Below, piece after piece: positions 10,011 through 35,075 of a DNA stretch of 64,000 bases (the first letter of the stretch is position 1; each line of letters begins with the position of its first letter). The notes beneath the pieces were generated by a model. It did no database searches. It was not told the origin of the DNA and saw only the letters and a program-made list of their open reading frames with translations. This DNA is from Roseivirga seohaensis. GTDB lineage: Bacteria; Bacteroidota; Bacteroidia; Cytophagales; Cyclobacteriaceae. The stretch covers positions 1 through 64,000 of the forward strand of contig NZ_LRPB01000023.1 in NCBI RefSeq assembly GCF_001592945.1. The letters are read 5' to 3'. Position numbers and translations under genes: made by a program.

Positions 10011-10162
10011 AATTTGTATAACATTTTGGATAACAATTTACGGGGACTAACAAGACAGGACAAGAGAACTAACACGCGATAACAGCAAATAAGCCACTGT
10101 TTTTCAGTGGCTTATCTCTTGTTTATACTTGTTAGTTATTGTTAAAAGTGATCCCGACAAGA
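9973..10162. repeat. Left copy of the 190-bp integrase-attachment repeat
   Basis: About 190 bp matching 34829-35017 at roughly 85% identity by eye, in the same orientation. It includes the integrase start, paired TAACATT/GGATAACAA motifs, the shared stretch CGGGGACTAACAA, the stem-loop at 10089-10115 and the 15-bp core GTGATCCCGACAAGA at 10148-10162. After the core the two copies part: the right one continues as tRNA-Arg, the left one into unrelated sequence. Confidence 0.85.
10089..10115. terminator. Stem-loop next to the left attachment core
   Basis: ATAAGCCACTG (10089-10099), loop TTTTT, CAGTGGCTTAT (10105-10115): a perfect 11-bp stem, duplicated at the right end behind the tRNA. There it could end the tRNA transcript; here it is a copy with no visible gene to terminate. 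Confidence 0.5.
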
Positions 10163-10423: not shown

Positions 10424-13400
10424 TTATCCATTACTCGCATGTCTTGAGGCCAATGCTAAGCGAGGGTCATGGATAAATGGAAGCTTTTGCATAGCTACCA
10501 CTTCCAGACTGAAAAAATCAAACTCTTCTACCACTTTGCCTGTAATTTCATAAATACCTTTTCCTCTGAAAGGATACTTTGCTGCAACTGGAGGAAAGTG
10601 GGTACTGTCTATAAAGTGGCCTTCCCAGTCAATCCATGTCCCAAACTGCATTCGTTTTCCGCCCGAAGTGGTGGTGCTTTTTACGTGGATTAAGTAGCCC
10701 ACCATTTTTACCAGCTTGTTTTTATGTTGCTCCATTTCTCTTACCATCACCTCGTTTTCTGGCTGCTCTTTTAATAAATGGAAAGGGTTGCAAAGCGGAA
10801 AGCCAAGTAATTCAATTTGATCAAAAGCATCTTCCAACAGATCATAGTTGAGTTCAGGTAATTTATAGTGTTTTACTTCTGGGTCGAAAAGCATTTTGGC
10901 GGGTTTGGTTTTTTTCTGCTGACCTAACTTAAGGTAAGCCTCCCAAAGCAATTCCTTTTTGGTGTAGCCCGTAAAACGAAAAGCATTGATTCGGATAAGC
11001 AAGCTTAGCTGATCGAGTGAAATCTGTACCCTTTTCAAGAAGTGATCGAAGCTCATAAATACTCCGTTCTTTTGCCTTTCTGTGAGCACTTCCTGTACCG
11101 TATTTTGTTCTAACGCACCAATAAATGCCAAGCCCATAAAAATGGTGTTACCATAAATGGTACAGAGTTGTTCGCTTTGATTTACACAAGGCGCTTGAAT
11201 ATCGGCTCCGTGCATAAAAGCCTCGTGCGCATACAACTCCACACTATAGAAACCACCCCCGTTGTTCATGGTTGCTACCATGTATTCCAGCGGATAATAG
11301 GCTTTCAGAAAAAGGCTTTGGTAACTTTCTACAGCATAACTGGCCGAATGCCCTTTGGCAAAAGCATAGCCCGCAAAGCTTTCAATTTGCCGCCATATTT
11401 CTGCTGCCAACTGATGAGAATGCCCTTTAGCCGCACAGTTTTCAAAATACTTATCACGAACGCTTTGAAACTCCTCACGTGAACGATATTTCCCCGACAT
11501 GCCCCTGCGCAATACATCGGCCTCGGCCAAAGTAAGGTCGGCAAAGTAATGCGCCACTTTAATTACATCTTCCTGATACACCATTACGCCAAAGGTTTCG
11601 GGCATAATGCTCAACATGGTGGGGTGAGCTTCTTTCCGTTTTTCGGGTTCACGAAAACGCAGAATATATTGGCGCATCATGCCCGATTTAGCCACCCCAG
11701 GCCGAATGACCGAACTGGCCGCCACCAGGCCCAGGTACTCTTCCACCCTCAGTTTTTTGAGTAGCATGCGCATGGCGGGCGATTCTACATAAAAGCAACC
11801 GATCGCCTGCCCTTCGCGCAGCATGGCCTTGATTTTTGGATCTTTTTTAAACTGAGCAATATTATGAATATCGAAATGCGGGTCGTCAGGATGGTTTTTG
11901 GAAATAATTGACAAGCTCTCCTTGATTTTTCCCAAACCGCGCTGGCTCAGAATATCGAATTTATATAGGCCCACATCTTCAGCCACAACCATATCGAAAT
12001 GGGTGGTAGGAAAACCCTTGGGGGGAAGATAGGTAGCGGTATAATAATGGATGGGTTTTTCTGAAATCAGAATTCCGCCCGCATGAATACTCAGGTGACT
12101 GGGGAAATTTTCAATGTAATTTCCATAACGCAAAACCAGTAAATGTAGCTCGTCCAAGTCCTCCACTTTAGCCGACTGGATATGATCTATTTCGTGCGGA
12201 GGCACACCGAGTACTTTGCCCAGTTCACGCACAATGGCCCTAAACTGAAAAGTACTATAAGCAGCCAATAAGCTAACATTCTTAAATTCTGAAAAAATGA
12301 AGTTGGTAATGTCTTCTCTATCTTTCCAGGAGAAATCAATATCGAAATCAGGTGGATTTTTTCTATAAAGATTTATAAAACGCTCGAAATAAAGGTCGAG
12401 TTCTATGGGGTCTACATCGGTAATGCGCAGCAAATAGGCCACTACAGAGTTGGCTCCACTGCCTCTACCTACATAGAAATAGCCTTTGCTTCGGGCATAC
12501 TGACAAATGCGCCAATTGATTAAAAAATAAGACATAAAACCCTGTTGCTTGATCACCTCTAATTCCGTTTGAATACGATCTAGAATTTTCTGGGTCGACT
12601 GTGGGTAGCGGTAATCAAAACCTTCATTACAAAGCCTCTCCAACATTTGATAATCCGCCTCGGGACTACCGCAATAAGTGCGTTGATTTTTATTCAGATT
12701 TTCCCCTTCGAAATCAAAATGGACACTGCATTCATCCAATAGCTTTTCGGTATTGGTAATCATATAAGGATGATCGCGATACAGTTTCCTCAACTCACCC
12801 ACTGGTCGAATGAAATCCTCTGCGCTGCCTTCTTCTGTCTTAGGCAGCTTGCTCAGCAGTGTATTGTTGTCTATCGCCCGCAACAAACGATGGGCATTAA
12901 AGTCCTTTTTCAGAACAACCCTTTCCCCCGTTTCTTTATCAATTTTACTTCTGAATGTAGCCGTTGGCAACATCACCAGTTTGGTCTTTTCCATCTGGTG
13001 TGGTGGATAAACCAGCTTAATTAAATCGGCTGGCTTTATACCAATAAATTCATCTTCGCGAAGCTGAAAATGGGTATATTTCTGAAAAGGGTACACCACA
13101 AAAGCATGCTGAAAAGCTGGAGAACGATCTGGAATACATTCACCCGAATGAAGAAACTGAGAGAGGTAATCATTGAGTTCTTTAAACCCCTCATTGTTTT
13201 TGGCAATGGCTACAAACAGCTGGTCGGCTCCATTTCTGAAATCAATTCCCAAAACTGGTTTAATGTTATGTTTAGATGCTATTCGTACAAAATTGAGACT
13301 GGTAGCCGTGCTATTAATATCCGTTAATGCAAAAGTACGCACTCCAGCCTTCTGCATTTGAGCAAGCAGTTCGGCAGGTTTTATAGTGCCGTATTTAAAG

Positions 13401-22324: not shown

Positions 22325-23521
22325 TTGAGCTCAATACCAAAAAATAAAATTATTCTCTTGGGTAATGGGTTTGATCTATCCCATAAGCTACCCACAAGTC
22401 TCGAAGACTTCGTGACCTTTTTGGTTAAGGAATTATTTGATGACGATCTTCAGGAAAAGAGTCCATTATTGGATAAAAATAAGGCACCAGCATTTCGTTG
22501 GGTGGTTAGTCAATTTAACAGTGAGGAAAGCATTGACTGGGACATATTAGTTAAATCCCAATTCAATCAATTTAATAGAATGATGACCAGATTCTGGAGT
22601 TCAAACCCAGACGCATCTCAACATACTGGACTGCCAATCCTAAGACAGGAAAAATATGGATCGTATCCTAATTTACTCTTCGAAAATAACCATCTATTTT
22701 GGAGAGCTTTATGCGACACTAATCAATTCAGATGGATAAATTTCGAACGAGCATATTACAAACGATTGACGGAACTTTGTAAAGATACTACTGGCCATTT
22801 CCATAGTAATCGAATTGAAGAAGTAAAAATTCTTAATGATCAATTTAATAAGATCAAATCCGAGTTTATTCGTTACCTAAAAACTTTGAATATTTCTCCC
22901 TCAATAGGCACTCCTGGTCATTCAAATTATCTTTACGAAGGCAGAATACACCAAAGGGAAGGTGAGCGGCTTGATTATAGAAATAATCAGGCAGAGTTCC
23001 AGTTAATTCTTAATTTCAATTATACTTCCTTACCTGAAAGAGTCTATCAGTTGAATAATTCTCCTGATAAACCGAAAACATCCATAATCAACATTCATGG
23101 GGATTTAGACAATCACAATCAAAATAACCCAATCATTTTTGGTTATGGTGATGAAATGGATGATGATTATCACCAACTAGAGTCATTAGAAGAAGATGAA
23201 GTACTTAGACATTTTAAAAGTACTCAGTACTCCAAGACACATAATTACCATCGATTACTCAGTTTTATCGAAATGGGTCCATTCCAAATAGATATTGTAG
23301 GCCATGGTTGCGGTATGACAGATCGAGTATTGTTAAATACAATATTCGAACATGATAACTGTGACCGCATCAAGATATTCCACTACAAGAATATCAACCA
23401 TTATACTGAAACTTATATGCATGTTTCAAGGCATTTTAATAAAGATAAAAAACACCTGCTAAGGCAAAGAGTTCTCCCATTTGATCCAAAAACGCCCTGC
23501 CCTCAGTGGGATGATAAATAA
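22325..23521 (+). CDS. abiH: AbiH-family abortive infection protein
   Basis: 398 residues from a TTG start; no ATG is near. The N-terminus IILLGNGFDLSHKLPTSLED is the AbiH hallmark (nucleotide-binding-like GNGFD, then L-x-T-S). Further family marks are LNFNYTSLPERVY, INIHGDLDNHN, IIFGYGDEMDDD and IVGHGCGMTDRVLLN. The fold is thought to be related to SIR2-like NAD-binding proteins. AbiH was found as a plasmid-borne abortive phage resistance protein in lactococci; its mechanism is not known. It is transcribed rightwards, with a 50-residue membrane protein gene 31 bp downstream. Confidence 0.9.
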   Translation: MSSIPKNKIILLGNGFDLSHKLPTSLEDFVTFLVKELFDDDLQEKSPLLDKNKAPAFRWVVSQFNSEESIDWDILVKSQFNQFNRMMTRFWSSNPDASQHTGLPILRQEKYGSYPNLLFENNHLFWRALCDTNQFRWINFERAYYKRLTELCKDTTGHFHSNRIEEVKILNDQFNKIKSEFIRYLKTLNISPSIGTPGHSNYLYEGRIHQREGERLDYRNNQAEFQLILNFNYTSLPERVYQLNNSPDKPKTSIINIHGDLDNHNQNNPIIFGYGDEMDDDYHQLESLEEDEVLRHFKSTQYSKTHNYHRLLSFIEMGPFQIDIVGHGCGMTDRVLLNTIFEHDNCDRIKIFHYKNINHYTETYMHVSRHFNKDKKHLLRQRVLPFDPKTPCPQWDDK

Positions 23522-23552
23522 TGAATACATATACCTTAATAAATAAAACTCT

Positions 23553-23705
23553 ATGGGAAAGGCTAATGATAAAATTGATTACGATTGGGGAATAAGTAAC
23601 GAGCAAAGAGCAAGAAGAAATAGACCTGATGGTTTTTGGGATAAAGTAGGTCCATTCATAATGGGTGTGGTTATTATTCTATTCATTATTAAATCATGTT
23701 CTTAG
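23553..23705 (+). CDS. Small single-span membrane protein downstream of abiH
   Basis: A 50-residue frame, ATG at 23553 and TAG at 23703-23705. The first 30 residues are charged (DYDWGISNEQRARRNRPDGF) and are followed by one strong transmembrane helix (VGPFIMGVVIILFIIKSC). Short membrane proteins next to defence genes often act as effectors or regulators, but nothing in this sequence proves that. Composition and the 31-bp gap suggest co-transcription with abiH. Confidence 0.5.
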   Translation: MGKANDKIDYDWGISNEQRARRNRPDGFWDKVGPFIMGVVIILFIIKSCS

Positions 23706-23746
23706 TATTTGGCTATTACCCTGCTTGAAGCTCTTTTTAAAGGATT

Positions 23747-23800
23747 ACCCCCCGTTCGCAAACGCGCAAACGCCCCTGCCAAACGCCAGCGAACGGGGGT
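23747..23800. repeat. GC-rich repeat cluster R1 (CGTTCGC/AAACGC) with inverted arms
   Basis: CCCCCGTTCGC (23749-23759) and GCGAACGGGGG (23789-23799) are perfect inverted arms, widened by ATTAC/GTAAT on the outside. Between them stand three AAACGC copies. The cluster is far more GC-rich than its surroundings. It is one of five such clusters, all inside this element. Confidence 0.7.
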
Positions 23801-23938
23801 AATAATCGGTTACAACGCAGCTTTTAACCATTCAATAAGTGCTTAAAACATTCAAAAAGGCAGTTTCTGCCAAATAACTATGCCCCTTAACTGAAAGGAG
23901 TTAATGAGTCAAAAATTCGGTTTGGCACGAAATTAGGC

Positions 23939-23968
23939 ACCCCCGTTTGCAAACGCCCCCGAACGGGC
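23939..23968. repeat. GC-rich repeat cluster R2, directly before a start codon
   Basis: CACCCCCGTTTGCAAACGCC then CCCGAACGGG; its centre CGTTTGCAAACG is a perfect 12-bp palindrome. It ends 8 bp before the ATG at 23976, so it takes the place of the translation initiation region of that gene. Confidence 0.65.
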
Positions 23969-23975
23969 TATTACT

Positions 23976-24683
23976 ATGGCAGAACCCAAAGCACAAACCC
24001 ACATTCAGCAGCTGGGATTTTTTGATAATGATCTCAACTCTAGTACTCACGACAATATAATGATCTGGCTTCAGAAGAATATTGACCAGGTTCTCAACAA
24101 CCTTTACTATACACCTTTTGAACGCTGGGAGGTTGAGAGAATGGTTAATTCAACCAAGGAAGAACTTCAAAGGCTATTACCACCAATGATTCAACAATTA
24201 AAATGGAGTGGAAACAAGCTTGAGGAACATCAAAAACTAATTGACTCACTCCAGAATTGGACTGGAAAAGAAATTTTGGAACAGGCTATCGAGCGGCCAC
24301 TAATTACTTCTCATAGTGTTAAATGGGAAATGACGGTTGAGAGAGAAGGACGAAGGGTTGGAGATAAATACACGCTCGGATTTATAGACATGCATGTTGC
24401 ATTTTCCTATATGGGCTATATGATAAAAGGCATCCCAATAGGGTCAAATCAAAAAAAAGAGATTGAAGAGTATTCGTTGCCCTATCTATTCTCATACTTT
24501 AATGATGATGAAGTATTCTTTGAAGTAAAAACCAAAATACCTTCAGTGGGGGCACTGCTTAGGCAAATCAACTTCTACAAGAGCTATAAGCCGGGTAAGT
24601 ATGTGGTGGTGTGCCCAGATGATAGGCATAAGGAGTTACTGGCCAGCCAAAATGTGGGGTTTGTTAAGGCGTTCGCTTTATGA
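23976..24683 (+). CDS. PD-(D/E)XK nuclease-like protein
   Basis: 235 residues. The N-terminal half is helical with no match I recognise. The C-terminal half has a restriction-endonuclease-like order: a strand ending in GFIDMHVAF, a later VFFEVKTKIPSVGALLRQIN (E-V-K, with a following Q-x-x-x-Y on a helix as in Cas4/AddB-type nucleases), and a closing strand KYVVVCPDDRHKELLAS. This suggests D and E-x-K metal-binding residues of a PD-(D/E)XK nuclease. The family is not certain. The final codons fall into GC-rich repeat R3 (GGCGTTCGC), so the C-terminus may have been rewritten by the repeat. It may be defence cargo or an element-processing nuclease. Confidence 0.7.
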   Translation: MAEPKAQTHIQQLGFFDNDLNSSTHDNIMIWLQKNIDQVLNNLYYTPFERWEVERMVNSTKEELQRLLPPMIQQLKWSGNKLEEHQKLIDSLQNWTGKEILEQAIERPLITSHSVKWEMTVEREGRRVGDKYTLGFIDMHVAFSYMGYMIKGIPIGSNQKKEIEEYSLPYLFSYFNDDEVFFEVKTKIPSVGALLRQINFYKSYKPGKYVVVCPDDRHKELLASQNVGFVKAFAL

Positions 24684-24788
24684 TAACAGGGCGTTTGCCC
24701 GTTTACAAACGGGGTTACAAGGCGTTCGCAAACGCCCGAACGGGGTAGAATCTAATTGTGCAACGCGTTTTCGAACGACCCAGAACGC
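24668..24788. repeat. GC-rich repeat cluster R3
   Basis: From GGCGTTCGC inside the end of the nuclease-like gene, through GGGCGTTTGCCCGTTTACAA, GGCGTTCGCAAACGCCCGAA and CGCGTTTTCGAACGACC, to AGAACGCCC. GGCGTTCGCAAACGCC is close to a perfect palindrome. It fills the space between two convergent genes. Confidence 0.7.
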
Positions 24789-24795
24789 CCAAATA

Positions 24796-25047
24796 CTACA
24801 TCTTTTTGTTATTGGCATCTACTTCACGCACGAGAAAATCTGGTTCAGTTATGGAAATTGTTACCCCAACTGGTAGGTAAAGTTGTTTTACCATTTCGTA
24901 CAGCTGCCTAGGATTTAGCTTTTTCTGCTTCTTCCCTGTGTTTTCTATTATATCAGCATCCTTCAGCCAGCCGTTGAACGTTCTAAGAGATACACCATAC
25001 ATATCGGCAAGTTCTGCCTTAGTGATTCCTGGAGATATTACTTTCAT
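24796..25047 (-). CDS. Small helix-turn-helix protein, paralogue 1 of 5
   Basis: 83 residues. An HTH-like core SPGITKAELADMYGVSLRTF, then NGWLKDADI, followed by KLNPRQLYEMVKQLYLPVG. The pattern G-I-T-x-x-x-L-A-x-x-Y, ~10 residues, W-L, ~15 residues, L-x-P-x-x-L is shared with four other small genes in the element. The first part should bind DNA; the second conserved part may be a dimer or partner surface. The overall layout recalls the Bacteroidota DUF4248 family, but this is a resemblance only. It lies 11 bp downstream of paralogue 2 in one operon. Confidence 0.65.
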   Translation of the reverse strand: MKVISPGITKAELADMYGVSLRTFNGWLKDADIIENTGKKQKKLNPRQLYEMVKQLYLPVGVTISITEPDFLVREVDANNKKM

Positions 25048-25058
25048 ATCATTTCAAT

Positions 25059-25301
25059 TTAAGTTGTAAGAGGTAAAGTTTTGAGGTATGGGACTCTGAT
25101 TTCTACGTCAACATCTGGAACCCCTACACTGGCAATAAATTCTGCCAACTCAATTGCCTGAAGATTCTTTTGATGGTTTACACCCACTTCTTTGAGCCAA
25201 TTGATAATCGTATCTACATCGCAATTGTAAAGCTTGGCCAGTTGTTGGCGTGTAGTACCTACCCTAATTGTTCTTTTTTGCTTCATGTTATAGCGTTTCA
25301 T
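25059..25301 (-). CDS. Small helix-turn-helix protein, paralogue 2 of 5
   Basis: 80 residues, or 75 if the Met at residue 6 is used. Core VGTTRQQLAKLYNCDVDTII, NWLKEVGVNHQKNL, then ELAEFIASVGVP, clearly related to paralogues 1, 3 and 5 at matching spacing. It is probably a DNA-binding protein of the element. Its upstream region is occupied by GC-rich repeat R4, which could hold its binding or promoter sites; that is inference. Confidence 0.65.
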   Translation of the reverse strand: MKRYNMKQKRTIRVGTTRQQLAKLYNCDVDTIINWLKEVGVNHQKNLQAIELAEFIASVGVPDVDVEIRVPYLKTLPLTT

Positions 25302-25312
25302 TTGAAGGTTTT

Positions 25313-25402
25313 AGGCGTTCGATGCCGTTCGCAAACGGGGTGAACGCGTTGGCGTACCGCGTTCGCAATAGCCCAAACGGCCTAACAAACGCACCAAACG
25401 CC
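25313..25402. repeat. GC-rich repeat cluster R4
   Basis: About 90 bp between paralogues 2 and 3, with GGCGTTCGATGCCGTTCGCA, AACGGGGTGAACGCGTTGGC, CGCGTTCGCAATAGCCCAAA and ACAAACGCACCAAACGCC. It repeats the same CGTTCGC, AAACGC and AACGGGG words as the other clusters. Confidence 0.7.
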
Positions 25403-25407
25403 TATTC

Positions 25408-25623
25408 TCATGCGTTGAAAATGGCTCTATTCGTCTCGTATGTTGGGCAGGTGTAATCATCAGGTAGGCCGTATTCATGAATAAACGAGGTAAGTTCTTT
25501 AGGACTTAGTGTCCTTTTGTGGGTAATCCCAATTTCTTCAAGCCAATAAGCAAGGGTTCTTCTATCGCTATTATAAATATTGGCCAGCTTCCTTCTTGTA
25601 ACCGGATAATTGATCTTGTTCAT
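25408..25623 (-). CDS. Small helix-turn-helix protein, paralogue 3 of 5
   Basis: 71 residues, the shortest paralogue. Core YPVTRRKLANIYNSDRRTLA, YWLEEIGITHKRTLSPKELT, SFIHEYGLPDD. The block IGITHKRTLSPKEL is almost the same as IGVTHSRTLKPKEV in paralogue 5, which shows common descent. Likely a DNA-binding regulator or accessory factor; target unknown. It follows a strong terminator and thus probably has its own promoter. Confidence 0.65.
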   Translation of the reverse strand: MNKINYPVTRRKLANIYNSDRRTLAYWLEEIGITHKRTLSPKELTSFIHEYGLPDDYTCPTYETNRAIFNA

Positions 25624-25674
25624 TACTACAATTTACGAACAATCATTAAAGAGTTCTCCAATAGTAATAAGCAA

Positions 25675-25704
25675 AAAATAGGGGCATCTACGCCAAGATG
25701 CCCC
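25675..25704 (-). terminator. Strong rho-independent terminator of the 26-kb operon
   Basis: GGGGCATCT (25681-25689), loop ACGCCA, AGATGCCCC (25696-25704): a perfect 9-bp stem, followed on the minus strand by TATTTTTTG. It lies 17 bp after the end of the gene at 25722-26111 and ends the operon that runs leftwards from about 28.8 kb. Confidence 0.85.
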
Positions 25705-25721
25705 TCCCAAATCAACAAGAA

Positions 25722-26111
25722 TCACTCTAAAGTATTCACCAAACCATTGAGTGATTTGTCTTCACCGTTTTTGGCCTTTACAACCATAACGGTACCCAAA
25801 GCTGCTAATGCTACTGCTGAAATAACCAAGGTTGCTTTTAAACCATTGCTCATTCCATTTGATTGTATACCTGGGGTATAGGCTTCAACCTGTGCTCTTT
25901 GAATCCTCAACCTTTCGGCCTCAAGTGCGGCCGCATTATTTTGTTGAGCTATTTCTTGCTGAATCCTGAGCGCTGCAATCTCTCTTTCAGATTGCTTTTT
26001 GGCTTGATTGCCTCCAATTAGATTGGAGACAAAATCAATTCCGCTGCCTATCCATTCGCCACCGTTTAGAGTAGTCTCTGGATTTTCATACTGTCCATAT
26101 TGATTGTACAT
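25722..26111 (-). CDS. Tail-anchored-like membrane protein of unknown function
   Basis: 129 residues. It has a polar, Gln/Asn/Tyr-rich N-terminus (MYNQYGQYENPETTLNGGEW), a Gln/Ala/Arg-rich coiled coil (about 40-75), and one transmembrane helix near the C-terminus (LKATLVISAVALAALGTVMV, about 90-112) with a short charged tail. No family is recognised. Small membrane proteins with Gln/Asn-rich starts occur in virions of tailless and filamentous phages, so a structural role in a satellite or membrane-containing virus is conceivable but unproven. It is the last gene before the terminator and lies 3 bp after the next gene upstream. Confidence 0.65.
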   Translation of the reverse strand: MYNQYGQYENPETTLNGGEWIGSGIDFVSNLIGGNQAKKQSEREIAALRIQQEIAQQNNAAALEAERLRIQRAQVEAYTPGIQSNGMSNGLKATLVISAVALAALGTVMVVKAKNGEDKSLNGLVNTLE

Positions 26112-26114
26112 GAC

Positions 26115-26768
26115 CTAGTATTTAGAAGGTTTTATTTCATCTTCTAAGAGGCCGGACAGGCTTGTTTCTTCCTCAATCTCCTCTTCAACTTCTTCATCGA
26201 AGTCTTCGATTTCAAGGGCTTCATCCAAAAACAGGATGTCATTTTCATCAAAATTCATTTTGATGATGTCGCCTTCTTCATATTGCTGAAGAATTTCCTG
26301 AAGCTTGTATATCAAGTCTTGAAGCCTGTGCCACATGAAGAGATTCTCGAAGACCTCTACATCATGGCCACAAAGCTCTTCTACTTGAGTTTGTAGCGTT
26401 CTTAATTTGCGGATGTACAAACTAAGTTCTTCAAATTTCCATTTGAAGCCCTGACTGTTTGATTTGAGGAAAACGAACAGTTTCTTCATGCTAATGACTT
26501 TACCACGCTTGGCACGAAGTTCTTGATCCTGTTTTTCACGTTGCTCAACTTCAAATTTTAACTTTTGGAATTCCAGTTCGCTTTTTCTTAAGTCGATAGC
26601 TTCCTGAGTCAGTGCTTGATCTTCCGCAATACCATTGAGGGTGTCATATTCATCCCTCCATTGTTCTACTAGGCTTTCGTCTAGTTCCAAATAGTCGGCA
26701 ACACTTTCATTGTCCCAACTTGCATCGAATAGCCCTACAGCTATTACTTTTTGTTTTTCGTTTTTCAT
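26115..26768 (-). CDS. Acidic coiled-coil protein of unknown function
   Basis: 217 residues. The N-terminal 45 residues look like a small HTH (GLFDASWDNESVADYLELDE), followed by long coiled coils (about 55-165) and a very acidic C-terminus (EEVEEEIEEET). There is no Cys beyond one and no catalytic motif. A putative DNA-contacting head plus a long coiled coil fits a terminase-small-subunit-like or scaffolding protein, but no family can be named. It is coupled to the membrane-protein gene 3 bp downstream. Confidence 0.65.
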   Translation of the reverse strand: MKNEKQKVIAVGLFDASWDNESVADYLELDESLVEQWRDEYDTLNGIAEDQALTQEAIDLRKSELEFQKLKFEVEQREKQDQELRAKRGKVISMKKLFVFLKSNSQGFKWKFEELSLYIRKLRTLQTQVEELCGHDVEVFENLFMWHRLQDLIYKLQEILQQYEEGDIIKMNFDENDILFLDEALEIEDFDEEVEEEIEEETSLSGLLEDEIKPSKY

Positions 26769-26876
26769 TTTATTTTGAGATTTTGTTATACTTTAAAATT
26801 AATAATTCATTTATTTATTATTTTAACAGATAGTACATGACCTTTGATTATCTGATTTAAACTGACATTATCAAAT

Positions 26877-27113
26877 TTATTCGTGGTACGGATGTCCAAG
26901 AATTTCGAATATTTTGGTGTATTCTTTCGGTGAAAACGTCTTTTTCCCCTTGGTTTCAAAACCTAGTTCCAATTCTATTTCTAGTAATACCTTGTTAAAG
27001 GAGTCTGCTCCAAGGCGATAGGCATTTCTTAAATGTTCCCTGGTTGCAAAGCCAATAAAGGGCTTAAGCTTCTCCCTCTTGGGGTTCATTCCCCCTGTTA
27101 TTGATTCTTTCAT
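26877..27113 (-). CDS. Small helix-turn-helix protein, paralogue 4 of 5 (most divergent)
   Basis: 78 residues; an internal Met at residue 9 is an alternative start. Core IGFATREHLRNAYRLGADSF, then KKTFSPKEYTKIFEILGHPY. The end F-S-P-K-E-Y, ~8 residues, L-G-H-P keeps the family spacing, although the HTH part has drifted and lacks the W-L pair. Its distance from the other four suggests an older duplication. Probably still DNA-binding. Confidence 0.55.
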   Translation of the reverse strand: MKESITGGMNPKREKLKPFIGFATREHLRNAYRLGADSFNKVLLEIELELGFETKGKKTFSPKEYTKIFEILGHPYHE

Positions 27114-27132
27114 TTTTATAGATTTAAGTTGA

Positions 27133-27357
27133 TTACTGATTTAAAGGGTCTAATACTGGAATTCGCATTTCACAATTTTCTGGTAGGCCATTGGCCCTTA
27201 CCAAAAGGGCAACCTCTTTAGGTTTTAAGGTTCTGGAGTGTGTTACTCCAATTGCGTGAAACCATTGGCTGAGCACATCAGGGGAAATATTATAAACATC
27301 TGCCAGCTGTAGCCGCGTTATCCCTGACCTAATTACTTTTTTGTTGTTCTCTTTCAT
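27133..27357 (-). CDS. Small helix-turn-helix protein, paralogue 5 of 5
   Basis: 74 residues. Core IRSGITRLQLADVYNISPDV, LSQWFHAIGVTHSRTLKPKE, VALLVRANGLP. The best consensus member of the family. Its start overlaps the stop of the DUF6371 gene by 4 bp, so it is translated together with a replication-type protein; this hints at a role in replication or its control. Confidence 0.65.
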   Translation of the reverse strand: MKENNKKVIRSGITRLQLADVYNISPDVLSQWFHAIGVTHSRTLKPKEVALLVRANGLPENCEMRIPVLDPLNQ

Positions 27358-28808
27358 GTTGACTTTATTTTGAGTTTGACATTATTTTGAGTTCTCTTTT
27401 TGACCTTTGGTAACCGTCCAGCATTGGCCTTCTTCGATTGCTGAAGCAATGCTTTCAAATCCATCAATCTGTTATAGTAAGGTTTGAACCTTGGCTTATC
27501 TCTTTGGGCTTTAATTATGGCCATATGGCGTTCAACCATTTTGACCACGTTCGTAATGTTGGTTGCTGGCTCAAGTTGAATTGGCTCTTGTGGAAGCTTG
27601 GCCTTAATGAAATAGCGCTCTAAGCTTTCTACCTGCCATTTGGGTTCTGGCTTAGGCAATGGTTGGGCATCTGGAGTTCTTGGCTGTTGAAAAAAAGGTT
27701 TGTTTAGGGCTACACCTTTTTCACTTTTTTCACCTTTGGGCTGAACCATCGGCTCAGGAACCGAAGGTATTTCTCTTTGCTTTGGTCTAAAGGCTCGCCA
27801 ATCTTGTTTGATAAGGAAGTCGGCAAGGTCAAGTCCTTTAGCCCGTTCTTGGTCGTTCGCGTTGCGTTCAAGCAAATCTGAAACTGTAAACTTGGTGCCT
27901 GGCATTGCTTTTTCAAATTCTACAGCCTTTTTACTCCACAGTTTAAAAGCATTGCCCGTTTTAGATAGATCCGGAAAGAGTACTACCCTACGCCCTTGCA
28001 GTACTTTACACTTCTCCAGCTTTAAGCTGCTAAGGTTAAAAACTGCCAACCACAAAAGATTACCTGGTTGATCAGGCAACCCAAAATAAAGTGTTGAATA
28101 GATTGCGGTTTTTGGGGCTTCAACTAAAGCCACTGGATTAACTGGGTACTTATCGAGCAAATGTTCCCCAAACAGGCAAGACACCTTTGTTTCATTCTTT
28201 AAATAATCCGCTAACCATTTTGGGATTTCATGACCCTGTTTTAGATAATGCTTTTCGGCAATAGAATGCAGAAAGTTTGTTTTTATAGTGCGGTTCTGTT
28301 GATCAAAGGTTTTTACCTGAACCGCCCGAACATTCCCCTTACGATCTATGTAGGGAATGGTGAGCGCACCCGACATATACCCTTTATTTAGTGTGCCCAA
28401 ATAATATAGCTCTACCACTTTCTCCACATCCTTTTCAGGGAAGGGAAAGGGGATGCCTTTTATTAGATTTTGGATGAATATGTTGCGTTCGTACCCGTTT
28501 GCTAATAGCGTTCGCTTAAGCACAGAAAAAGGAACGAACGCGTCCGCAAACGCGCGAACGGGGGTTGATTTACCAATACCTACCTTCTTTTCCTCTTGAA
28601 GGTCTTGATCTGGGTTGGCATAACCATCTTTATAAGGGTTAAGGTGATAGCCACAGTTAGCCTCACGATCACAGCGGCCATACTGTTCTGGCAGATAGTC
28701 ATTGGTAGCTTTCTCAACGTACCGAACAAAACGTTTTTTGCCACAACTGGGGCAGAGGTGTTTCTTACTGCCTGGCTCTAAGTGGTATATCTTACTCCCG
28801 TTTTCCAT
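27354..28808 (-). CDS. DUF6371 toprim-like replication protein
   Basis: About 484 residues from the ATG at 28808 (MENGSKIYHLEPG); the frame stays open to 28850 and would add 14 residues. The N-terminus has a primase-type zinc ribbon (CPSCGKKRF, then GRCDREANCGYH). A toprim-like region follows with VALVEAPKTAIYSTLYFG and VVLFPDLSKTGNAFKLW, the E and D positions of toprim nucleotidyl enzymes. The C-terminal 130 residues are Pro/Lys-rich. DUF6371 proteins pair with DUF3987 ATPases in many Bacteroidota elements and are presumed to serve primase-like replication. Residues coded at 28484-28564 derive from a GC-rich repeat (R5) read in frame, an insertion that did not break the gene. Confidence 0.8.
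   Translation of the reverse strand: MENGSKIYHLEPGSKKHLCPSCGKKRFVRYVEKATNDYLPEQYGRCDREANCGYHLNPYKDGYANPDQDLQEEKKVGIGKSTPVRAFADAFVPFSVLKRTLLANGYERNIFIQNLIKGIPFPFPEKDVEKVVELYYLGTLNKGYMSGALTIPYIDRKGNVRAVQVKTFDQQNRTIKTNFLHSIAEKHYLKQGHEIPKWLADYLKNETKVSCLFGEHLLDKYPVNPVALVEAPKTAIYSTLYFGLPDQPGNLLWLAVFNLSSLKLEKCKVLQGRRVVLFPDLSKTGNAFKLWSKKAVEFEKAMPGTKFTVSDLLERNANDQERAKGLDLADFLIKQDWRAFRPKQREIPSVPEPMVQPKGEKSEKGVALNKPFFQQPRTPDAQPLPKPEPKWQVESLERYFIKAKLPQEPIQLEPATNITNVVKMVERHMAIIKAQRDKPRFKPYYNRLMDLKALLQQSKKANAGRLPKVKKRTQNNVKLKIKST
28484..28564. repeat. GC-rich repeat cluster R5 inside a coding region
   Basis: GCGTTCGTACCCGTTTGC, AGCGTTCGCTTAAG, GAACGAACGCGTCCGCAAAC, GCGCGAACGGGGG. The same words as R1-R4, here in frame within the DUF6371 gene, coding a short segment around STPVRAFADAFVPF and TLLANGYERN between the zinc ribbon and the toprim-like part. 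Confidence 0.7.
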
Positions 28809-28919
28809 TTTCCATATTTGCCATTTGTTCCATTTTAAAGGAAAAGTCAATTTTCCATTCTTTCCATATGTTCCATTTCAATATGTAAATGGCATGAATG
28901 GAATAAATGGCAAATGGAA
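28803..28919. repeat. Iteron-like TTCCAT array, candidate replication origin
   Basis: Six TTCCAT copies on the plus strand (28803, 28810, 28828, 28853, 28862, 28871), then two inverted ATGGAA copies (28898, 28914) with related ATGGCA/GCCAT words, in an AT-rich spacer between the DUF6371 and DUF3987 genes. Direct repeats facing inverted ones beside replication genes is the usual look of an iteron origin; no function is proven. The first copies lie at or just inside the start of the DUF6371 gene. Confidence 0.5.
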
Positions 28920-30326
28920 TCATACAAGCTTCTTATAATGCCCATGTTCTAGCTTTTCTATTAATTTGATCTTGGTGAAGTCTTTTAAATAGTTGGTTAC
29001 GGTTCTCTGATGTAGACCTAGTTTATCTGACTCAAAATCAGCCTCTCGTCTTGTAAACTCTGACGGAAGAGAGGTGTAAAACTCTCTCTTTTTAGTATCA
29101 AGGTGCTCAGTTGGGTTTTTCTTCAAAAGGTGCGAATGCATGTGCAAAGAATGATCAATGAATGTTTTCGCAAGTGCTACTGCAATGTCAAAGTCCTTAC
29201 CTGAACAAACTTGATGCTTATTAGAATAGTCTTGATGCTCCCAAGTACGAAGGATAGTAAGTATTGAGGCTATTCGAGTGATGATAATTGCGGATCGGAA
29301 GATGATGCTTTTGACATCAGACCCGAAAGATCGGACATAGTACTTAGTCCATTTTGCGTATAAATCCTGTAGTTCATCTTCCTGATCAGGCTTCCATGAA
29401 AAGTGAACCTCGCCCCAGCTTTGACACTTTTCGTAAATCTGTAGTAATTCTTTTGAATAAGGCTCCAATTGATCAGCATAGGGTATTGGTTTTGATTTAG
29501 TGCCAAATACACTTCTAAACTCTTCATCCCCTTCGAAGTAATAGAACATAAAACGACTAAACAGGCCGTCTTCAGTATTGGGGATTATTCCTTTGAGCTG
29601 GCCAGGCGTTCCGCTAAGCGCTACTGAAAGGCATGGATTTTCAATTTCTTTATAGTTACCCGACCCTTTTCGGTTTTGAGAATGCGTTTCATGTTCAAAA
29701 GCCTTTCTCAACACATCGCTATACCCAGACCAGTCTTGTTTTAGTGTATTCCCTAATGTGTCGGCTTCAGACTCAAAAAGAATAGAACTTTGCATACGCG
29801 CCATAGTTTCCACAAAAGAAGCACTGCTACTATTCGCAGGGATAAATAGGTATTGATAATCTGGCTCCAATGGTTCATCTATAAATAGTCTATCCTTTGC
29901 CGGAGTGGCTCTATATCGAGAAATCTCTAGCTGATAGTCCTCCTTTTTTTTGTCATTTTCTTTTATGTATTTTCTTTGAATAGGCTGAGCCAAAAATTTA
30001 CCATAGTTCATTTTTCCTTTTCCACTAGCTGCTGGAGCAATAATGAATAAGAAAAGGTTATTCCAATATGTCTTACCATCATGTTGAAATTTAACACCGG
30101 GCATACAGCCGCTTAAAACTGTAATTGTGCTGGCAAGAAAAACATCCTTGTCTCTGCCATTATCAAAAAAGGCACAAGTCTCTTTAAGAAACTTAGGGAG
30201 TAGCTTATAGATATGCTCAGGAAATAGTGGAGTTTCTACTTTTTTGAGTACACCTTTAAAATTCTCTATTTCTTTAAGCAAGGGGTCAGGTACTTCTAGG
30301 CTCTCGTGCTTTGGCTCGATGGACAT
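28920..30326 (-). CDS. DUF3987 ATPase/helicase-like protein
   Basis: 468 residues. A P-loop-like APAASGKGK sits after a hydrophobic strand (LFLFIIAPAASGKG, about residue 95). Further family marks are FESEADTLGNTLKQDW, SDVLRKAFEHE, LSVALSGTPGQL and GLFSRFMFYYFEG. DUF3987 proteins are AAA+/DnaB-like and occur with primase-like partners in plasmids, phages and integrative elements. The C-terminal 60 residues form a winged-helix-like end (RREADFESDKLGLHQRTVTN). It probably unwinds or loads at the element's origin. Upstream of the DUF6371 gene in the same direction. Confidence 0.85.
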   Translation of the reverse strand: MSIEPKHESLEVPDPLLKEIENFKGVLKKVETPLFPEHIYKLLPKFLKETCAFFDNGRDKDVFLASTITVLSGCMPGVKFQHDGKTYWNNLFLFIIAPAASGKGKMNYGKFLAQPIQRKYIKENDKKKEDYQLEISRYRATPAKDRLFIDEPLEPDYQYLFIPANSSSASFVETMARMQSSILFESEADTLGNTLKQDWSGYSDVLRKAFEHETHSQNRKGSGNYKEIENPCLSVALSGTPGQLKGIIPNTEDGLFSRFMFYYFEGDEEFRSVFGTKSKPIPYADQLEPYSKELLQIYEKCQSWGEVHFSWKPDQEDELQDLYAKWTKYYVRSFGSDVKSIIFRSAIIITRIASILTILRTWEHQDYSNKHQVCSGKDFDIAVALAKTFIDHSLHMHSHLLKKNPTEHLDTKKREFYTSLPSEFTRREADFESDKLGLHQRTVTNYLKDFTKIKLIEKLEHGHYKKLV

Positions 30327-33684: not shown

Positions 33685-34866
33685 TCATTTAAAGTTAACG
33701 TTTTCAAACCCATTTAACTCATTAATAAAGTGGCTAGTACTGATGTCAAAATAGGTTTTGGTGGTTTTTGAGTTTTGGTGGCCAGCCATTTTAGCCACGT
33801 ATTCCCTAGGGTAACCCTTTGATATTAACAATTCACAAAATGTATGGCGGCCAACCTTGTTATAAAGCACCTTTTCTATTTTGGCCATTGGCCCAATTAC
33901 TTTAAGTGCTCTATTAAATGCCTGGTCTACAACTGTTGGAAATACTAAAGGAGAATTTTCAGCTTTGTACTTATTCAAAAGCCTAACTGCTTCAGGAAAC
34001 TTATACAAAGGCACAATATAACGGTAGCCATTTTTAAACCTCTCACTTACCAATAACAGCCCAGCTTCAGAGTTTATAAAATTCTCGGCCGTCAAACCAC
34101 GTACATCACTGTAGTAAAGCCCAGTCAAACACTGAAAGACAAATAGGTCCCGGTGCAGTTCTAAATATTGATCTTCCTTTTTCTCGAACTTAAGGTTTAC
34201 CAATGCTTCAATTTCTGAAATGGTAAGAGCTGTTCTTTTCACCACAGATACTGGCACCTCTAGCCTGACCTCAAAAAACGGATCACGAATTAAATAATCG
34301 TTTTTAAGCGCATGCCTGGCAATCTTCTTAAAGGGATCAAAGTACTTAGTTACAGTAGAGCCAACTAAACCTTTGCTCAACAAAAAATCTCTATACTCCA
34401 GAATAAGGCCTTCACCAAGTTCTTTGAATTTAATTTTTGGGTTAAACTCGCTGATATGCCTTTTGAAGGTGTTGTATTTCTTACGTGTATTCGGTGATTT
34501 AAATTTGGTGATCTTCAAATAATGATCGATGTAATCATTGAATGATTCCTTGTCTCCTTTCCTCTCAAAGAATTCTGACAGCTGCCGGAAAGTTACTGGC
34601 CGATCGAGAAAATGTAATTTATTCACATACTCCTGAAGCTCGCTCATTCGATCCATAAGCGCTTTGTTGAATAGGTGATTTTGCGGATGGCTATCCTTCA
34701 CCCATTTATTTTCACGCCCCTGCCAATACTTGCTCTCCAGCTTTGGAAGTTTGGGGTCAAAGAAGCGAACCTCCCTATCAATCGTTACTCGTAGGTGAAT
34801 TGAGTATCGGCCACTCTTTGTTTTTATATAGTTTCGATTGAAGATAGGTTTAAAAGAGACTCCCAT
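33685..34866 (-). CDS. int: Tyrosine recombinase (integrase) of the element
   Basis: 393 residues from the ATG at 34866 (MGVSFKPIFNRNYIKTKSGR); the longer frame to 34911 enters the attachment region and is less likely, and the left remnant also conserves the MGVSF start. An arm-binding N-terminus, a SAM-like core-binding domain (about 100-200) and the catalytic domain follow. GRHTFCELL, MAGHQNSKTT and the nucleophile in TYFDIS are present. The position of the first catalytic Arg reads TGLYYSDV (Tyr where T-G-L-R is usual), and the residue before the second Arg motif is K-V-G-R rather than H-x-x-R. Loss of the first Arg is known in IntDOT-like Bacteroidota recombinases. It integrates the element at the adjacent tRNA-Arg. 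Confidence 0.9.
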   Translation of the reverse strand: MGVSFKPIFNRNYIKTKSGRYSIHLRVTIDREVRFFDPKLPKLESKYWQGRENKWVKDSHPQNHLFNKALMDRMSELQEYVNKLHFLDRPVTFRQLSEFFERKGDKESFNDYIDHYLKITKFKSPNTRKKYNTFKRHISEFNPKIKFKELGEGLILEYRDFLLSKGLVGSTVTKYFDPFKKIARHALKNDYLIRDPFFEVRLEVPVSVVKRTALTISEIEALVNLKFEKKEDQYLELHRDLFVFQCLTGLYYSDVRGLTAENFINSEAGLLLVSERFKNGYRYIVPLYKFPEAVRLLNKYKAENSPLVFPTVVDQAFNRALKVIGPMAKIEKVLYNKVGRHTFCELLISKGYPREYVAKMAGHQNSKTTKTYFDISTSHFINELNGFENVNFK

Positions 34867-35017
34867 AAGTGTGTAACATTTCGGGTAACAATTTACGGGG
34901 ACTAACAACACAGGACAAGAGAACTAACATGCCTTAACACCAAATAAGCCACTGTTATTCAGTGGCTTATCTCTTGTTTACACTTGTTAGTTAGTGTTAG
35001 ATGTGATCCCGACAAGA
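34829..35017. repeat. Right copy of the integrase-attachment repeat (active side)
   Basis: Partner of 9973-10162, about 85% identical by eye. It covers the integrase start, paired GTAACATT/GGGTAACAA motifs that could be arm-type integrase sites, a stem-loop, and the core GTGATCCCGACAAGA at 35003-35017 inside the tRNA 3' end. Confidence 0.85.
34944..34970 (-). terminator. Stem-loop behind tRNA-Arg
   Basis: ATAAGCCACTG (34944-34954), loop TTATT, CAGTGGCTTAT (34960-34970): perfect 11-bp stem, 34 bp after the tRNA 3' end on the minus strand. The T tract is weak (TTTGG), so termination is likely but not certain. It is duplicated at the left end of the element. Confidence 0.55.
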
Positions 35018-35075
35018 ATCGAACTTGTATCTAAAGTTTAGGAAACTTCTATTCTATCCGTTGAACTACGGGACC
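35004..35075 (-). tRNA. tRNA-Arg (anticodon CCT)
   Basis: 72 nt. Acceptor GGTCCCG pairs with CGGGATC (one G-T), D stem GTTC/GAAT, anticodon stem GAAGT/ACTTT with loop TTCCTAA (anticodon CCT), T arm ACAAG-TTCGATT-CTTGT, discriminator A. CCA is not encoded. Its 3' part is the attachment site of the element; the tRNA stays intact because the element carries or restores the 3' end. Confidence 0.95.

Follow-up and report, generated by a model that had tools for sequence, protein, structure and literature searches.

The repeats known as REP/BIME (repetitive extragenic palindromes and bacterial interspersed mosaic elements) and ERIC (enterobacterial repetitive intergenic consensus) are defined by their many copies across a chromosome. 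In mobile genomes of the T4 type, mobile regulatory cassettes form stem-loop patches between genes, at joints, much as in the clusters considered here. Origin iterons of Staphylococcus aureus pathogenicity islands (SaPIs), as the cited text describes them, are found immediately 3' of the helicase gene, and a helicase of the staphylococcal cassette chromosome (SCC) binds such a region (PMC7581432). A nuclease that requires semi-palindromic repeats for cleavage is also on record, the phage enzyme Odn, which in the accounts cited acts at the iterons of the phage-inducible chromosomal island-like element, PLE (PMC7145576, PMC8263062). Here we consider five clusters of short G+C-rich words, R1 to R5, in an integrative island of ~24.9 kb at a tRNA-Arg(CCT) gene of Roseivirga seohaensis (10055-35017). 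The window, to which coordinates refer unless another locus is named, is the whole analyzed stretch of 64,000 nucleotides (contig NZ_LRPB01000023.1, positions 1 to 64,000). The clusters are a real, island-specific feature of the DNA, and their word recurs in a second island of the same genus.

A preliminary description, made from the sequence alone, had reported a family of CGTTYGC, AAACGC and AACGGGG words in five clusters, and word counts confirm both the family and its positions. R1-R5, 376 bp in total, hold 17 of the 24 copies of CGTTYGC in the window, 7 of 9 of AACGGGG, 28 of 63 of CGTTYG and 10 of 46 of AAACGC. The whole 4.15-Mb genome has 528 CGTTYGC, for which ~0.05 copies are expected in 376 bp against the 17 found. 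The contrast in base composition also holds, with 58.8% G+C in R1-R5 and 39.0% in the remainder of 23300-28900. Counted as RAACG/CGTTY, the maximum number of words per 100 bp is 9 in R3, 8 in R4, 7 in R5, 5 in R1 and 3 in R2; because the densest 100 bp in 60 dinucleotide shuffles of the window never held more than 5, R3-R5 lie above all the shuffles, R1 is level with their maximum and R2 does not stand out by itself. Among 129 other fetched loci the same density reaches 9 in L032, 6 in L061 and 5 in eight more, that of the G+C-rich L032 (28 CGTTYGC versus 19.2 expected) being explained by composition. A composite unit, CGTTYGCRAACGCSCRAACGGGG, is common to the clusters, imperfectly in some, and 8 of the 10 cluster pairs align better than their word-shuffled versions (p<0.05); the alignments of R2 with R4 (p=0.085) and with R5 (p=0.10) do not go beyond those controls. 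Unit and spacing lengths vary widely and, as had been judged earlier, this is not an array of clustered regularly interspaced short palindromic repeats (CRISPR).

The clusters are confined to the island. Isolated words do occur elsewhere in the window, so that the earlier impression of their absence holds for clusters and not for words; likewise, single words are dispersed genome-wide while clusters are not spread evenly over the host chromosome. The palindromic core CGTTYGCRAACG has four sites in the genome, all in R1-R4 (1 for the reversed-pattern control), and a three-word pattern has three, which are R1, R3 and R5 (control 0). Searches at genus and family level covered 265-390 genomes per query. 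CGTTYGCRAACG was present in 20 of 59 genomes searched, its own included, at levels like those of the reversed-pattern control, and the three-word pattern in 39 of 390 genomes of the order, its own included, the sites in the 38 of 389 others being scattered at about control level. One GTDB-wide pattern scan gave 23 loci, mostly in GC-rich genomes. Among 42 loci from other genomes, four that belong to these 23 (L025, L026, L032 and L045) reach at least 6 CGTT/AACG per 80 bp, L032 again by composition. None of 29 other primase loci has a CGTTYG cluster like R3-R5, the densest being L061 (6 per 100 bp) and L067 (5), and no near-identical element was found in searches with the primase, nuc, p217 and integrase.

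A genome-wide dispersed repeat of the REP/BIME or ERIC type was considered and rejected: the palindromic core is found in R1-R4 and nowhere else, and pattern hits outside the clusters number 1 of 5 and 0 of 3. For REP sequences mobilized by a REP-associated tyrosine transposase, the 29 window proteins scanned gave no Y1-type transposase match in Pfam, a scan that did not extend to the rest of the genome. Scans for tRNA, CRISPR and Rfam families returned tRNA alone at gathering level, other Rfam matches being sub-threshold. Among the papers listed in literature searches none dealt with these clusters, though this does not prove that none exists.

All five clusters are given on the forward strand. 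R1 (23744-23804) consists of one CGTTC and four RAACG words, with inverted arms and a significant predicted DNA fold (z = -3.56). Its arms had been called perfect, and they are so over 11 bp (CCCCCGTTCGC/GCGAACGGGGG); one additional C and then ATTAC/GTAAT follow. R2 (23938-23972) holds a perfect 12-bp palindrome, CGTTTGCAAACG, and its final word stops a few bases 5' of the ATG of nuc (23976-24683, forward strand), which encodes an orphan protein of 235 aa and has R2 and R3 on its two sides. R3 (24666-24790) contains the composite unit twice; its first word lies within the final codons of nuc, and the remainder spans the gap up to the gene for HTH1, a small helix-turn-helix (HTH) protein. R4 (25312-25404) occupies the gap between the start of the HTH2 gene (25301) and the end of the HTH3 gene (25408), and the gene gaps are filled almost exactly by R3 and R4. 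R5 (28484-28566) lies inside the primase gene (27354-28850), at codons ~95-123, which fall between the zinc ribbon and DUF6371 of the protein. The predicted fold of R5 pairs its three left words with its three right words, with an energy that is not significant (z = -1.35); R2 (-0.56), R3 (-1.95) and R4 (-1.55) are not significant either. Insertion of R5 as a clean block into the primase gene is unsupported, and since the closest primase relative (52% identical over residues 21-484) has aligned residues at the site, ~5 fewer, the R5 words appear to have come to occupy this coding stretch by substitution and small insertions. Several rows of that alignment, read on the wrong strand, were disregarded.

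A second island of the genus, at C3:683338-701504 in the genome designated G002, bears directly on whether the clusters are conserved. It lies at the same tRNA-Arg(CCT), again with the GTPase gene as neighbor, and its integrase is 57% identical; it has homologues of nuc (~41% identical), p217 (51%) and mem129 (40%), together with an HTH_17 protein and a DUF3987 protein, and its cargo differs. Around the nuc homologue, at the corresponding place, this related element carries clusters of the same word, CGTTYG. GAACATAACCGAACACATTCGCGAACG abuts the nuc start codon and five units, read by eye, lie downstream. CGTTTGC is the top-ranked 7-mer over the 18 kb of the island, and within a 54.9-kb region the three densest 100-bp windows are three nuc-side units (7, 6 and 5 words). 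Shuffles of that region (n=60) averaged 3.6 words per 100 bp with a maximum of 6, so that the densest cluster alone exceeds every shuffle; its density of 7 is equalled by 1 of the 129 other loci. With a 271-bp unit as query, 1 of 19 genomes of the genus gave matches, at five places that are all in this island. When three words were required on the same strand, the Roseivirga seohaensis genome (G000) gave 5 hits, 4 of them in clusters, and G002 gave 4, of which 3 are in clusters, while six other genomes gave 4 in total versus 45 control hits. Nothing longer than the words aligns between the clusters of the two islands better than shuffles; the property common to both is the word and its place.

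In gene order both islands read mem129, clusters with differing genes, clusters, nuc, cluster and differing cargo, and the segments that differ between them are thus bounded by clusters on both sides of nuc. Between nuc and mem129 the window has HTH1-HTH3, where G002 has two orphan genes (L254:10480-11624) lying between ~390-bp direct repeats, 90% identical, that bear cluster words. These direct repeats, at L254:9905-10292 and 11732-12120, may delimit a cassette.

The gene adjoining clusters in both islands is nuc. The small HTH proteins had been proposed as the binding partners, and that proposal is weakened: the G002 clusters occur without HTH1-4 or p78 by tblastn, and a profile of these five HTH paralogues found no match in G002. 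A p78-like protein of 91 aa was seen there by eye, away from the clusters. A role in packaging, raised at the same time, is unsupported, for the core unit occurs in no viral contig and has no phage match; the sole phage-side hit is of 30 bp (E=0.06). Viral-contig searches gave no relative for the primase, HTH2, p217 or mem129 and one for nuc (L324); a plasmid search gave no match for nuc or for 24660-25410, and a phage search none for mem129.

Nuc is found in 6 of 295 family genomes, its own included. Invariant D, E and K residues in GFID/EVKT...GELxRQ, assigned by eye, suggest a PD-(D/E)XK-like protein, and weak matches alone came from PHROG and NCBIfam; Pfam and PADLOC gave no match, and solved structures no significant one. 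The N-terminus of the family conserves GFxDxDL...HD...WL. More distant relatives occur in a viral contig (L324) and in a phage (L325, C-terminal half only), where the two neighboring genes carry the annotations single-strand annealing protein and Cas4-domain exonuclease. The viral contig that encodes the relative also has a cluster of TAAGTA words (L324:3413-3542). By tblastn, neither nuc nor mem129 has a match in 12 other related loci, 11 of which stay below 5 words per 100 bp.

The explanation that best accounts for these observations, to which we would assign a probability of roughly 0.4, is that R1-R5 are arrays of half-sites at the joints of gene cassettes, bound by a protein that the element encodes and that may be Nuc. 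That a related island has clusters of this word around its nuc homologue makes them look like a real feature at the DNA level. The half-site core, CGTTY/RAACG with CGTTYGCRAACGCSCRAACGGGG as its composite unit, would belong to one subfamily of islands at tRNA-Arg. A DNA-binding protein of the element would occupy the half-sites, inverted pairs holding dimers; Nuc, with its gene flanked by clusters, is the best candidate and the small HTH proteins come second. Arrays at gene joints may act as regulatory or architectural sites, may serve as homology patches for the gain and loss of neighboring gene cassettes, and would enlarge by local duplication.

Several observations weigh against this explanation. 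Two islands are the only ones with clusters, and conservation rests on these two and on short words; the best inter-island alignment, that of R4, scores 13.5 where the null has a mean of 10.2 and a maximum of 15.0. Of the G002 units, three are copies of one another, which inflates the word counts there. The reversed control of the same-strand search totals 11 in the genome of the window (1 in G002), so that location and not number carries that evidence. A strict scan for the same exact 6-mer at least four times within 130 bp flags R3 and misses R1, R2, R4 and R5, and it flags none of the CGTTYG units of G002. Variable spacing and a cluster within a gene are unusual for operators. No CGTTYG cluster lies near the distant nuc relatives of four family genomes (L255-L258) or those of L324 and L325; one guess is that the cluster word differs there, as origin words do. 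The 12 related loci include truncated contigs, short contig ends and flanking stretches, and the absence of nuc from them is therefore not firm. One of them, L343, which has no nuc match and an integrase 40-41% identical at another tRNA, matches R1 in density, with 5 words per 100 bp; its cluster may be a weak relative or chance. The words concerned, CGTTT/AAACG, come after an HTH_17-type gene (L343:3541-3640). In a further related island a small CGTTAC cluster was noted by eye between HTH-like and p217-like genes (L342:6055-6105).

Among the alternatives, the one that fares best, and is possible though clearly less probable than half-site arrays, is that the clusters are self-spreading palindromes: a tiny non-autonomous, G+C-rich hairpin unit that makes further copies of itself inside the island, through break repair or through gene conversion, and is tolerated in intergenic gaps and in coding stretches of weak conservation, without function for the island. 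G+C-rich patches in AT-rich surroundings, a unit common to 8 of 10 cluster pairs, the inverted structures (above all the folded R1) and the filling of gene gaps by R3 and R4 would all follow, as would the position of R5, where the primase is variable and has ~5 residues more than its closest relative. The GC clusters of yeast mitochondria, in the cited description, are short, GC-rich and palindromic, and they merge and shuffle (PMC4478555). Against this reading, the palindromic core occurs nowhere else in 4.15 Mb; R5 is no clean insertion, the folds of R2-R5 are not significant, and what recurs in the second island's clusters is words and not units.

It is unlikely, yet still worth weighing, that the clusters are dedicated sites of exchange, cut by Nuc or another nuclease of the element so that repair between clusters swaps cassettes, those of defense genes included. 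Clusters on both sides of nuc bound the differing nuc-mem129 segments in both islands, the orphan genes of G002 are flanked by the repeats with cluster words, and the phage relative of nuc has recombination-type neighbors in the annealing protein and exonuclease genes. Ordinary homologous recombination between repeats predicts the same pattern, however, R5 bounds no cassette, and with catalytic residues assigned by eye the cleavage role of Nuc is putative.

Replication brings in a different repeat system. Eight inverted copies of ATGGAA/TTCCAT (28803-28919, no strand assigned) form an iteron-like array that folds strongly (z = -5.38) and is the strongest word array of the window (p = 2e-11, uncorrected). 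Its final word occupies 28914-28919, immediately next to the 3' end of the helicase gene at 28920, the position that origin iterons have in SaPI/SCC-type elements, and by this analogy the array is probably a replication origin. The listed first codons of the primase gene overlap it; another ATG is at 28808. In a scan of 20 loci, the window plus 19 fetched ones, 10 have an array at the end of a helicase-type gene, two have one elsewhere (L226, a 30-bp tandem, and L324) and eight have none at threshold. The adjoining genes are of DUF3987/DUF5906/VapE/DUF927 type in nine cases (DUF927 below the Pfam cut-off) and AAA_25 in one, at distances from an overlap (L229) to ~180 bp (L346). Each array has its own word: ATGGAA in the window, GGGACA (L254), ACTACA (L340), GTAGAC (L342), GGAAAC (L229), AGTGCA (L230), TACGCA (L232), GGAGTA (L346), AGTAAC (L347) and GTCAAC (L350). 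A private word at the end of the helicase gene has the look of a rule for the origins of these islands. The origin-position word differs between the window and G002 and the CGTTYG cluster word is common to both, an unusual contrast within two islands. Other word-rich stretches were noted in passing: AAGTATA with 39 copies versus 2.4 expected in L303 (18 kb) and ACGTAG/CTACGT at 57 places in L241 (20 kb), both possibly genome-wide, and, in the locus of the closest primase relative (L226:3396-12500), CCCGACC and AGGTCGG with 12 and 10 copies versus 0.5 and 0.7 expected, a few of them beyond that range.

R1-R5 themselves are probably not the origin, since an unrelated array holds the usual origin position; R5 lies ~240 bp from that array and R1-R4 kilobases away. 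They might still be a second site for replication or maintenance, whether as additional iterons, as single-strand initiation sites or as a partition array, and the closeness of R5 to the probable origin, within the primase gene, and half-sites in both orientations would fit. This is very unlikely: a separate array is found at the usual position here and in nine other loci, R1-R4 are 3.4-5 kb off, and no ParA-like protein is among the Pfam matches of the scanned window proteins.

More improbable still are elements that act in RNA, as transcript hairpins with a part in termination or processing. R1 has a good fold at a gene end (by DNA parameters only), the same-strand triplets lie on the coding strand of nuc in both islands, and of the 15 terminator-like consensus hits in 23400-29000 (5.2 in shuffles) two fall in R5. 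Those two lie inside a gene, however, and none of the 15 is in R1-R4; nuc and the HTH genes next to R3 and R4 are read in opposite directions, and the Rfam scan reached gathering level with tRNA alone. Chance or composition has next to no probability, for although the composition-biased L032 is equally word-rich (9 per 100 bp) and R1 and R2 alone are within the shuffle range, it is ruled out for R3-R5 by all 60 shuffles and must contend with the word's clusters in the second island.

The remainder of the island is as follows. The tRNA-Arg (CCT) gene that forms the integration site is at 35003-35075 on the reverse strand, adjoined by the tyrosine integrase gene (33685-34911, reverse), whose counterpart in G002 lies at the corresponding tRNA. 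An imperfect direct repeat of ~108 bp marks the two ends, its attR-side copy (34910-35017) reaching into the 3' end of the tRNA gene and its attL-side copy (10055-10162) lying at the far end of the island, both given on the forward strand; exact blocks are of at most 23 bp and include 15 bp of the tRNA-Arg 3' end. On the reverse strand, the genes from nuc toward the integrase encode the small paralogues HTH1 (24796-25047), HTH2 (25059-25301) and HTH3 (25408-25623); the backbone proteins mem129 (25722-26111), with a C-terminal stretch that is hydrophobic by eye, and p217 (26115-26768); the HTH-like p78 (26877-27113), aligned with the HTH paralogue set; HTH4 (27133-27357); the primase-like DUF6371 protein with its zinc ribbon (27354-28850); and the helicase-type DUF3987 protein (28920-30326). 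A strong terminator-like hairpin of 10 pairs with a T-rich tail lies between HTH3 and mem129 (25680-25705). Island cargo includes a DNA polymerase III alpha-like protein, a Y-family polymerase, AbiEi/AbiEii, AbiH and a Qat set (QatA, QatB by a weaker match, QatC and QatD). The domain types suggest a host among Bacteroidota.

On how islands acquire and exchange defense genes, clusters with a shared word, where conserved and differing genes meet and beside a nuclease-like orphan, make one mechanism testable. An island's own nuclease and a conserved word at gene joints could amount to programmed cassette exchange that swaps defense genes, with the origin word kept private to each island; this reading is decidedly doubtful. 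Compared with known systems, the clusters resemble the origin iterons of SaPI and SCC elements, in the cited description, in being arrays of short words carried by an island with a helicase and a primase of its own, and differ from them in place: iterons are directly downstream of the helicase gene, where this island has the ATGGAA array and not the CGTTYG clusters (PMC7581432). They may be compared with the yeast mitochondrial GC clusters, portrayed in the text cited as short GC-rich palindromes that sit in AT-rich DNA (PMC4478555); R1-R5 are GC-rich in AT-rich surroundings, with a significant fold in R1 alone, and unlike those clusters they all stand within 5 kb of a single bacterial island, with a word that recurs in a second. 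The RepA-bound, Odn-cut origin iterons of PLE likewise are semi-palindromic repeats in a mobile island, according to the cited accounts (PMC7145576, PMC8263062); Odn comes from the phage and imitates RepA in its specificity, whereas the candidate nuclease Nuc is encoded by the island itself.

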